Source: Tractidigestivibacter montrealensis (GTDB lineage Bacteria > Actinomycetota > Coriobacteriia > Coriobacteriales > Atopobiaceae). From it: a DNA stretch of 64,000 nucleotides. The stretch's first letter is position 1, and each line of letters begins with the position of its first letter. Location: positions 1-64,000 of the forward strand of contig NZ_JANSKA010000008.1 in assembly GCF_024741235.1 (NCBI RefSeq), given 5' to 3'. The position numbers were made by a program, and so were the translations under genes. The notes beneath the pieces are model-generated. The model saw nothing but the letters and a program-made list of their open reading frames with translations, did not search any database and had not been told where the DNA came from. Positions 9,973-53,814 of the stretch are shown one piece after another.

Positions 9973-10012
9973 TTGCATAGTAGGCGAACTATATGTATAT
10001 ACATAAGTATAC
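9973..10012 (+). promoter_or_regulatory. promoter and overlapping GntR operator of the SIS/PTS operon
   Basis: A -35 TTGCAT at 9973-9978 and a -10 TATATA at 9996-10001 are 17 bp apart. The -10 sits inside the perfect 14-bp palindrome TATGTATATACATA (9992-10005), and a further GTATAC follows at 10007-10012. A repressor bound there would block RNA polymerase. AT-alternating palindromes of this kind are typical of GntR-family operators. Confidence 0.6.
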
Positions 10013-10039
10013 ATCGGACTAGACAATCTTGGAGGTACG

Positions 10040-11146
10040 ATGATCACCGAACTCGAAGACCCTACGATGATTGGCTATATCCATGACGGAGGGAATGCCC
10101 TTCGAAATGTCCTGGAGAACGAGGACGCATTTGTCTCGCCATTCCGAAGCGTGATAGAAAGCAACGACATCCAAGAGATTCACTTCGTGGGTTCCGGCAC
10201 AAGCTATAATGCTTCCCTCTACATCGCAAAGATGATTAGTAGGTTCTCTCACATCGCATCATATGCCGCATATCCCACCCGGTCCGACCCAAAGGTTGAC
10301 GTTGCCTGCTCCGGCTATCGGGCGAGCCAGATTCTCTACGTTGGCGTCTCGCAGTCTGGTACGAGCGTCTCGACGATTGATGTGCTTCGCAGGGCGCGCG
10401 AGGCAGGTGCGTCTACCATAGCGCTGACCGATGTCATGGACAGTCCCGTGGTGGAGGAGGCAGACCATGCCATTCGCCTCTTCACTGGCCATGAGGTGGT
10501 GCACGTCGAGACTCGTGGATACCTCGCAACGCTGTTCGAGGGCTTCCTCATTGCGCTTGACCTAGGTCGCACGCGAGGGATCCTGGCGCAGGAAGAATTC
10601 CTCTCACGACACGAATCTGCAAGGCGGTTTTCGGAGGAGTTTGATGGGCTCATTGCGCAGGCTGAGGATTGGTACTCCATGCATGCCGATGAGCTCCAGT
10701 CACTCGGAAGAGCGTATGTCTGCTCGTATGGCGTAAACGAGTGCACTGCTGAAGAGGCGGAGTTAAAACTCACCGAGACCTTTGGAAAGCCGGTACGCGG
10801 CTATGAGCTTGAGGAAATGATTCATGGTCCGCACTACGCGCTGGATGAGGACACGTTCGTCTTCTTTGTTGCACCTTCTGGAGAATGCCTTAAGCGTATC
10901 CCGGTGTTTCTCGACTGGTTCAAGAAGAACCAGATTACTGAGCACGTATTTGTGATCACTTCCGGGTCGCATCTCGGCCAGTTTGGGGACAAGTCGCTCT
11001 GCCTAGGTGGAGACTTCTCTGAGGAACTGAGTCCCATTGCAATGATTCTTCCTTTTTACATTATTGCGGCCCGTAACTGCATTTCCGCAGGCATCAATAC
11101 GAGGGACAAGCCCGCAAACCGCATCGCCTTCGCGCACCTCGACTAG
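10040..11146 (+). CDS. SIS-domain sugar-phosphate isomerase/deglycase (GlmS C-half / FrlB-like)
   Basis: A 368-residue protein with two SIS domains (about 25-170 and 195-345). It starts at an ATG after TTGGAGG. Sugar-phosphate-binding loops are visible as FVGSGTSYNAS (49-59) and VSQSGTSVST (103-112), and the GlmS-like ELEEMIHGPH segment is in the second half. Such proteins isomerise amino-sugar phosphates or split fructosamine 6-phosphates (FrlB, GfrE/GfrF). It is the first gene of an operon with EIIB, EIIC and EIID of the mannose family. In Salmonella a mannose-family PTS with a LevR-type regulator and SIS deglycases handles glucoselysine and fructoselysine, so an Amadori product or amino sugar is a plausible substrate here. 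That is inference. Confidence 0.8.
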   Translation: MITELEDPTMIGYIHDGGNALRNVLENEDAFVSPFRSVIESNDIQEIHFVGSGTSYNASLYIAKMISRFSHIASYAAYPTRSDPKVDVACSGYRASQILYVGVSQSGTSVSTIDVLRRAREAGASTIALTDVMDSPVVEEADHAIRLFTGHEVVHVETRGYLATLFEGFLIALDLGRTRGILAQEEFLSRHESARRFSEEFDGLIAQAEDWYSMHADELQSLGRAYVCSYGVNECTAEEAELKLTETFGKPVRGYELEEMIHGPHYALDEDTFVFFVAPSGECLKRIPVFLDWFKKNQITEHVFVITSGSHLGQFGDKSLCLGGDFSEELSPIAMILPFYIIAARNCISAGINTRDKPANRIAFAHLD

Positions 11147-26772: not shown

Positions 26773-26852
26773 TCTCGTACAGAGTCCGTTGGAGACGCTG
26801 GCTTCGGTGCCTCCCTATTTTTGGACAAGCGTCTTTCTGTGACCCCCGGGCT

Positions 26853-27100
26853 GCATGAAAACGCTCTATCGGACGGGATTTTCTCATCCGTCGCATAAAA
26901 ATAAGCTATCGGATGGTCTGTTAAGAGCCTCGACATCAATCGTTGAATTATACTTACACAAAGATGAATAAATCACATAATATATACAAAGTTATGTAAC
27001 AGTAGTTTCATTACTGATGTAATCTCTCAAGAGGCACCGTCCGATAGAGCGTTTTTATGCAGAGCTTTCGGAACCTCCGTCCGATAGAGCATTTTTATGC
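26853..27100. repeat. 248-bp inverted element A: two 24-bp repeats per arm at 40-bp period
   Basis: Four related 24-bp repeats lie at 26853-26876, 26893-26916 (plus), 27037-27060 and 27077-27100 (minus). All start at their outer end with GCAT and end with CGGACGG or CGGATGG (for example GCATAAAAACGCTCT, then ATCGGACGG). Within each arm the repeats start exactly 40 bp apart, with unrelated 16-bp spacers. The 120-bp core (26917-27036) is strongly AT-rich and has no gene. Element B at 53370-53611 has the same geometry. It may be a pair of protein-binding arrays or a small non-autonomous mobile element. Confidence 0.8.
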
Positions 27101-27412
27101 GTGGGTCGACGCACCGCCCATATGCCGTAGTCGTTGTATCTAGTGCCAATGGATTTCTGAGTACCAATCAGGCGACTAGTGCACTCGTGCAGCCGTATCT
27201 GCGAAGTCCTCTCTCCGGAATCAAGCCGGTGTCCGTATCCGAGCTCTTGTAGAAGAAGCGGACAAAGGAGCCCTTCGTGGCATCCAGGAGACAAGGACGT
27301 TTCCTGGGGGCTGTGCCTACCGTTATGTGCTTTCAAGAACTGTCTTGTCAGATGGCAAGACAGAGTGTCATACTGTCGCCCCAGTGGCCGCACCAACCAA
27401 GGGGGGAGCATC
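27101..27412. other. intergenic region upstream of nadA
   Basis: No gene is recognised between inverted element A and nadA. The end of the stretch carries the nadA promoter and a dyad, described separately. The open frame of nadA extends back through this stretch without coding character. Confidence 0.35.
27340..27374 (+). promoter_or_regulatory. nadA promoter with candidate NiaR operator
   Basis: The dyad CTGTCTTG-8 nt-CAAGACAG at 27340-27363 has perfect 8-bp arms. It overlaps a -35 TTGTCA (27345-27350), with a -10 CATACT 18 bp further on (27369-27374). Its place before the NAD operon, which also encodes a NiaR-type repressor, makes it the best operator candidate. Confidence 0.5.
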
Positions 27413-52820: not shown

Positions 52821-52884
52821 GTGACCGCTTGCGGCACGGATGCGCTTCCCGGGGTTTAACACCTTTCGAATTGGCTATAAAGAC

Positions 52885-53305
52885 AGTGACTAAAGGGAGT
52901 CGCCCAGCAAGGACGACCGAGGTAGGAGGTGCATTCCGATGGGCAGTGACGAGAGTTCAACCAGGCGCCTGCCTTTGGATGCATGAATTCACCCCAGAGG
53001 CGGTGGCAGATCCCTCGCAACGTCAAAGTCGATACGGTGGCACCGCGAATACGCTGATTAGACAGCGACGTGAATCACAAACAGGGCAGGCGCATCTTTT
53101 TCTCCGGTCGGTGAAGAACCGACACCCCCAGACAGGTTCCTAACACCACGAGAGGAACGGAGAACGGGTTCGCACAAAGCGAACCATTACTGATAGCACG
53201 TGCCTATCACCTTTGTCGCCTCCCGCGCGGAAGCGACCTCCCTAAGGGGGAGAGTCCAAAGTATCACGTAGGTGGGCGGGCGCCCGGAAGGGCGCCCGCC
53301 CTTTT
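52885..53305 (+). ncRNA. candidate large structured RNA of about 420 nt, family unknown
   Basis: This gene-free stretch is dense in complementary segments and ends in a perfect terminator. A TATAAA lies at 52876-52881. GCGCCTGCC (52965-52973) pairs with GGCAGGCGC (53085-53093). A run of local hairpins follows: GTCGGT/ACCGAC (53107-53123), GTTCCT/AGGAAC (53136-53158), GGTTCGC/GCGAACC (53167-53185), GATAG/CTATC (53192-53208) and GTCGC/GCGAC (53215-53237). GGTGGCACCGCG at 53036-53047 equals the T-box core GGTGGNACCGCG, but no regulated gene follows. It does not show the conserved blocks I know of RNase P RNA, tmRNA, SRP RNA or common riboswitches. Confidence 0.6.
53274..53305 (+). terminator. 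intrinsic terminator of the structured RNA
   Basis: GGGCGGGCGCCC-GGAA-GGGCGCCCGCCC-TTTT: perfect 12-bp arms with a stable tetraloop. No coding sequence ends before it, so it must end a noncoding transcript. Confidence 0.88.
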
Positions 53306-53369
53306 GTGTCTTCGATCGATGCCCGTTTTGCTTGATGCGATGCATTAAGGCCTCGGCTGGGCCATTCCT

Positions 53370-53611
53370 GCATCGAAACCTCTTTCGTTACACAAATTGC
53401 CGATCTTGTGCGCCGAACTGCCCTACGTTACACGTAGTTTTGGCATAACCCCGAGTATCAGTTACTACATATTGATTAATAAGAGCATTCAAATACCACA
53501 TATAGTATACAGATGGGCCTCGCTACTTTGTCGGACCGAAAAACCATGTGTAACGGAGGGCACTTCGGCGCAGCGAGGATCGAATTTGTGTAACGAAGGG
53601 CGGTTCGATGC
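53370..53611. repeat. 242-bp inverted element B: two 24-bp repeats per arm at 40-bp period
   Basis: Four 24-bp repeats lie at 53370-53393, 53410-53433 (plus), 53548-53571 and 53588-53611 (minus). All begin GCATCGAA or GCGCCGAA at their outer end and finish CGTTACAC at their inner end. Start-to-start distance is exactly 40 bp in both arms, and the 16-bp spacers are also partly alike (AAATT, CGATC). The 114-bp core (53434-53547) is AT-rich without a gene. Geometry and outward GCAT are the same as in element A (26853-27100), though the repeat sequence differs. Confidence 0.85.
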
Positions 53612-53814
53612 ACTTCCGCCTGCAGCACTAGACATCCGTGACAGCTCTTTCGTCGTTTCCCCTGCATTCCAAACACCGAGAAGTTCGCGGAGAACCTTCT
53701 GACCATTCCGCTTGGGCCGCGGGCCTCCTGTTTCCCACCTGCGGTATCCTTGGTGGTCGCGTGGCGGGCCCGCACGGGGCGGGCGCCGCAGCGCCCCAAG
53801 GAATGTGAGGTCAC

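Follow-up and report, generated by a model that had tools for sequence, protein, structure and literature searches.

What kind of element is formed by the four inverted repeats that lie downstream of a candidate non-coding RNA in Tractidigestivibacter montrealensis, and what has kept them in place? The locus (element B) occupies positions 53369-53612 of the window, the 64,000-nucleotide stretch of DNA that was analysed, and contains four copies of a 26-bp repeat that are inverted about a 112-bp core. The initial annotation had described 24-bp repeats around a 114-bp core. The four repeats are found as it placed them, with a unit that is 1-2 bp longer and a core of 112 bp, and the start-to-start distance of exactly 40 bp that it gave for the left and the right arm is borne out by the repeat coordinates (Table 1).

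Anatomy and genome-wide geometry

The type-B repeat of element B has the consensus TGCRYCGAA-N8-CGTTACACA, which reads TGCRYCGAA-N4-YCTTCGTTACACA in its two-block form, and the 26-bp units begin with TG and, in most cases, end with CA. Element A, at 26852-27101 of the window, is laid out in the same way, with slightly shorter repeats (about 25 bp), for which the two-block form is TGCAYAAAA-N4-YCTATCGRACGG. Repeats of both types are asymmetric, and their consensuses can be aligned by eye (TGCAT..AA....C.CT(A)TCG..AC), so that the two types appear to derive from a single site by divergence. The type-B core evolves faster than the type-B repeats, while its length is nearly fixed (111-114 bp in the type-B elements measured). 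The inner 80 bp of the type-A cores have a mean G+C content of 26%, compared with 62.6% for the genome, and the type-A cores carry the mirror-image motifs ATCAA, AACTA, and TTGCAT.

Table 1. Features of elements A and B in the window, and intergenic sites that hold type A in T. montrealensis and type B in genome G004.
Feature	Position	Strand	Sequence or remark
Type-B repeat 1, outer left	53369..53394	+	TGCATCGAAACCTCTTTCGTTACACA
Type-B repeat 2, inner left	53409..53434	+	TGCGCCGAACTGCCCTACGTTACACG
Type-B core, 112 bp	53435..53546	none	
Type-B repeat 3, inner right	53547..53572	-	TGCGCCGAAGTGCCCTCCGTTACACA
Type-B repeat 4, outer right	53587..53612	-	TGCATCGAACCGCCCTTCGTTACACA
Type-A repeat 1	26852..26876	+	
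Type-A repeat 2	26892..26916	+	
Type-A core, 120 bp	26917..27036	none	
Type-A repeat 3	27037..27061	-	
Type-A repeat 4	27077..27101	-	
A/B site	C11:26852		Element A of the window
A/B site	C4:158327		
A/B site	C4:197368		
A/B site	C4:233944		
A/B site	C10:101395		Type-B outer repeat (C10:101375) abuts the A element; B intact in G004

The home genome (2.456 Mb assembled from stretches, with 32 kb of contig C4 reading N) was scanned without any assumption on sequence for four 25-bp windows at a spacing of 36-44 and an outer distance of 190-261, which amounts to 648 geometries. The scan yields 19 elements with scores of 109-140 and a spacing of exactly 40 in all of them. The outer distance is 224-226 in 15 elements (type A, 249-251 bp long) and, in the frame of the scan, 219-220 in the remaining four (type B, 244-245 bp long). 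The best scores below these elements are 94, 92, and 90. Two block-shuffled genomes reach a top score of 87, compared with 109 for the weakest real element, and a Markov genome gives no match scoring at least 84. Within the window, elements A and B are the only matches, and three shuffles gave none. The geometry is therefore commoner in the real genome than in shuffled or Markov sequence, which the initial annotation had required of a real family. Outside the units, a single-repeat scan of the same genome finds a solo A repeat (C4:665826), a solo B repeat (C10:101375), degraded B elements at C5:33875 and C9:102701, the latter collapsed, and two low-scoring matches; a shuffled genome gave 0 and 2. 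As almost no repeats occur outside the units, it is the four-site unit, and not the repeat, that has been propagated or kept.

An inverted plan of this kind could also be read as a long imperfect hairpin, acting as a terminator or small RNA or as a DNA cruciform, which we consider very improbable. One strand of element B folds at -103.7 kcal/mol, compared with -60.7 kcal/mol for shuffled sequence, as any inverted repeat would. Spacers, however, pair as well with those of other elements as with those of their own (0.38 and 0.37, respectively), and the same holds for the core halves, so that the simple hairpin against which the initial annotation had set its own reading is not what the elements resemble. 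Compensatory pairing was found neither between the arms nor within the core, the repeats of an element are only modestly similar to each other (in type A also those of the same arm), and Rfam gives no match. The lack of covariation in the spacers and core halves argues for double-stranded DNA sites instead of a hairpin. A structured RNA was rejected on the missing Rfam match together with the missing covariation.

All elements of the home genome are intergenic. Their neighbors include metK, ilvC, lgt, polA, argH, nrdD, and ndpA, which are unrelated to each other, and the flanking gene pairs are convergent, divergent, or tandem (names are from inspection of the translations; NA37/ndpA and ligA are from Pfam). 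A regulon was rejected because the neighbors are unrelated. In their fixed phasing, A+T-rich core, and inverted sites, the elements resemble a gal-repressosome-type loop. Two operator pairs might close a loop of about 140 bp and so regulate a promoter, either within the core or belonging to neighboring genes. Such a looping operator is improbable, as convergent gene pairs flank the elements with about the same frequency as divergent ones, the neighbors share no common pathway, and the cores of different loci are conserved solely in short mirror motifs.

The candidate non-coding RNA upstream of element B extends over about 52850-53310 of the window and ends in a strong terminator-like hairpin (53274-53301). 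It is approximately 95% identical in G003 and G007, and most members of the genus have it conserved ahead of ndpA. In another genus, G012 matches it weakly over 140 bp, and Rfam gives no match. It includes GGTGGCACCGCGA, which is like a T-box motif, perhaps by chance. A tie between this RNA and element B, whose adjacency the initial annotation pointed out, is not supported: the RNA is kept without the element in G001, G003, G006, and G007, and other elements adjoin unrelated genes. The adjacency is thus most likely a coincidence.

Distribution, type switching, and loss across the genus

A pattern scan of 140 family genomes was carried out with the type-A and type-B repeats, which families of elements with other repeats would escape. 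Type-A repeats occur in all eight genomes of the Tractidigestivibacter/Olsenella clade (12-54 each), as do type-B repeats (4-61 each). Named records that carry type A are Tractidigestivibacter scatoligenes SK9K4, Olsenella sp. KH3B4, Olsenella sp. kh2p3, ‘Jeddahella massiliensis’ OL-1, and the MAG RUG11916. The other 132 genomes hold a single type-A match (G119) and no type-B match. The match in G119 (G119:C1:1132001-1152000, 10007-10081) is a 75-bp remnant of a type-A element collapsed to its outer repeats. The crp-pflA stretch around it is 98-100% identical to the C4:233944 locus of the home genome, which points to a probably recent horizontal transfer or to a contaminant. A relative retained in another genus was therefore rejected. 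Another internal collapse of this kind is apparently found at G001:C1:825867-825937, where two outer type-A repeats lie 46 bp apart from start to start.

The family of elements that the initial annotation had proposed is thus recovered as one geometry with two diverged repeat types in all genomes of the genus. The initial annotation had each member co-evolving with its own binding protein. The home genome does not hold one type per locus, as its intact members fall into two types (15 A and 4 B), though repeat variants do drift by species and by locus. A right-half variant of type A (TATCGCGGGG, AACGCTGGG) is common to the most diverged species of the genus (L126, G005) and one locus of the home genome (L113, C9:75847). 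In a further type-A element (L101, 4769-5058), one 40-bp unit of the right arm has been duplicated in tandem, so that this arm carries a third repeat at the usual 40-bp step.

The number of elements per genome is about 21 in the three genomes counted. The home genome has 15 A and 6 B elements when degraded copies are included, G002 has about 11 A and 10 B, and G004 about 4 A and 17 B, so the A/B ratio flips while the totals stay similar. Five intergenic sites hold type A in the home genome and type B in G004, which represents a sister species (Table 1). The chance of at least five such coincidences is 3e-6 with the 919 intergenic gaps of at least 100 bp and 6e-5 with the 502 gaps of at least 250 bp. 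Judged by matching arm and spacer sequences, on which the orthology in these two genomes rests, G002 also holds B at C4:197368 and C4:233944, and G003 at C11:26852. None of the B elements at the switched sites is a near-copy of another B element, which makes a recent replacement by copying unlikely. Ancient double occupancy followed by differential loss is possible, as is repeated insertion into these sites long ago, and the former could account for the type switching without any role for function.

Elements are also lost. Apparent B remnants are found in the home genome at C4:252k and C5:344.7k, and C4:77388 is without the element that is present in G004 and, by arm sequence, in G003. The unoccupied sites of the home genome either carry scars or miss extra flanking DNA, including a hairpin, and therefore look like deletions. 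Loss thus appears to proceed through deletions with scars left behind, and individual copies are dispensable, since the home genome is without, or scarred at, several of the B elements of G004.

Conservation and age of the elements

The elements are found at orthologous sites across species. In 17 orthologous pairs, which are not all independent, the repeats are 94.2% identical, the spacers 89.1%, the cores 85.0%, and the adjacent 100-bp flanks 88.6%, with the flanks just moderately less conserved than the repeats. Gap events per substitution amount to 9/456 in the elements and 37/385 in the flanks (P = 5e-6, again for pairs that are not all independent), which makes indels about five-fold rarer per substitution inside the element than beside it. 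The spacing is thus constrained in spite of a core that evolves more quickly than the sequence around it, and the conservation of sites and phasing exceeds that of the flanks.

Paralogous type-A cores of the home genome are at most 62% identical to each other, with a mean of 49% compared with 30% for shuffled sequence. The type-B cores among the 17 B elements of G004 are at most 58% identical. No near-identical copies occur in either set, so that none looks recent, and identities that are above the null and still no higher than 62% indicate islands that are conserved without recent copying. The elements are thus of old age, have not visibly multiplied in recent times, and have largely been kept in place.

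Transposon-like ends and a proposed assembly site

The anatomy of the elements invites a comparison with several known systems. Correia-type MITEs are short units of fixed length with terminal inverted repeats, an A+T-rich middle, and a possible IHF-type site. The elements are similar in length constancy, inverted ends, and base composition of the middle, but they have duplicated sites in each arm, no recent copies or partner transposase were found, and indels are depleted at the resident sites. The ends of Mu and Tn7 carry several two-block sites that are bound by tandem helix-turn-helix domains (MuA, TnsB). Here, the likeness consists in multiple two-block sites of similar length per end; the two ends of Mu or Tn7, however, do not mirror each other equally and are separated by many kilobases of genes, whereas the arms of the elements are equal and enclose a core of about 111-121 bp. 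The MuA and TnsB end sites have been compared with those of IS21 (PMC10122671). IS5376, a member of the IS21 family, has two direct two-block repeats at each end (L1/L2 and R1/R2), and four IstA subunits assemble on two crossed DNA ends (PMC10122671). The elements share the two direct two-block sites per mirror-oriented end, the TG...CA tips with the terminal CA, and the number of four sites, which would suit a complex of four subunits on two crossed DNA ends (PMC10122671). They differ in that neither istA nor istB is found inside them or elsewhere with these ends, in their 25-26 bp site, start-to-start distance of 40, and fixed length of about 250 bp, and in being conserved in place without a clear target duplication.

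REPIN/RAYT elements are described as small and intergenic with inverted sites and as persisting for long in a bacterial lineage (PMC8049555, PMC3116915), which the elements resemble. REP units are palindromes (PMC3733652), whereas the 25-26 bp consensus has no internal palindrome by eye; in contrast to REPINs, the elements have four sites, an exact 40-bp step, and about 20 copies instead of a high copy number. No known class among those checked fits the family. The literature searched on Coriobacteriia/Olsenella repeats and IS21 MITEs contains nothing matching, in agreement with the initial annotation, to which no described element with this plan was known.

The main rival to the reading preferred below is a relic, to which we give appreciable but limited credence. 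The elements would be plain non-autonomous MITEs of an IS21/Tn7/Mu-like element, with two transposase-binding sites and TG...CA tips per end, that were once moved in trans, have no host role, and are now decaying. Like MITEs, the elements are short, non-coding, and bounded by terminal inverted repeats, and the tips and paired direct sites are like those of IS5376 (PMC10122671). The dispersal of intergenic copies, the strong variation in copy number of each type among species, the scars and collapsed copies, and the direct contact at C10:101375 between a type-A element and a type-B outer repeat, at a site with an intact B element in G004, agree with such an origin. The search for a source argues against it. 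No autonomous partner with the same ends was found in the home genome (32 kb of C4 reads N), where no pair of arms bounds a gene, and none is suggested by G004, in which 16 forward and 16 reverse B arms pair into elements of about 244 bp. Resident rve-type transposases (IS3- and IS21-like) have no A/B repeats nearby and were rejected as the source, as the ends of the istA-like genes and of the IS3-type transposases are unrelated to these repeats. Such transposase genes lie at the start of C4, the ends of C6 and C12, and C9:136.4-138.5k, where an istA-like frame containing one TGA and an istB-like frame on the other strand face each other. Phage or plasmid origin was likewise rejected, with no type-B match in plasmids and no type-A match in phages; type-B-like chance single sites in the viral contigs L259, L261, and L262 are without the geometry, and those in L259 and L262 fall in coding sequence. 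None of 35 elements has an exact target-site duplication of 3-9 bp, and there is a weak excess of 5-bp similarity (0.34 vs 0.26, sd 0.031), so that no clear duplication is seen. The absence of recent near-identical copies and the depletion of indels at resident sites also speak against a MITE that is simply decaying.

The reading that we prefer, at about even confidence, is that the elements are old places of protein assembly on double-stranded DNA, each with four sites and an anatomy like that of transposon ends, and are held in place by selection on the sites and their phasing. Element B would be one of about 21 such dispersed sites. A putative sequence-specific DNA-binding protein may occupy the four asymmetric two-block sites of about 25 bp each, which form one pair with a 40-bp step in each arm and mirror each other across the core. 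The protein would hold the two arms together, and the A+T-rich core would form a bend between them. Two-block sites are of the kind bound by tandem helix-turn-helix proteins, and the motif ATCAA at fixed mirror positions in type-A cores looks like an IHF/HU-type bend site. As the anatomy is that of IS21/Mu/Tn7-type ends at minimal distance, descent from a mini-transposon is likely. A bolder version, in which about 20 genus-wide sites, each occupied by either of two interchangeable four-site modules, form a phased loop with a dedicated protein and serve the host, for example in nucleoid organisation, would make the family a new architectural class that is not mobile; we regard this as rather unlikely.

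If the elements are merely relic mini-transposons, one would still have to explain why their phasing is so strict and why they have been retained for so long. If they are domesticated transposon ends under selection, they would represent a bacterial reuse of transposon-end architecture as a chromosomal site, and the putative binding protein could be fished directly. The interchange of types A and B at orthologous sites would provide a natural experiment for a change in protein-DNA specificity.
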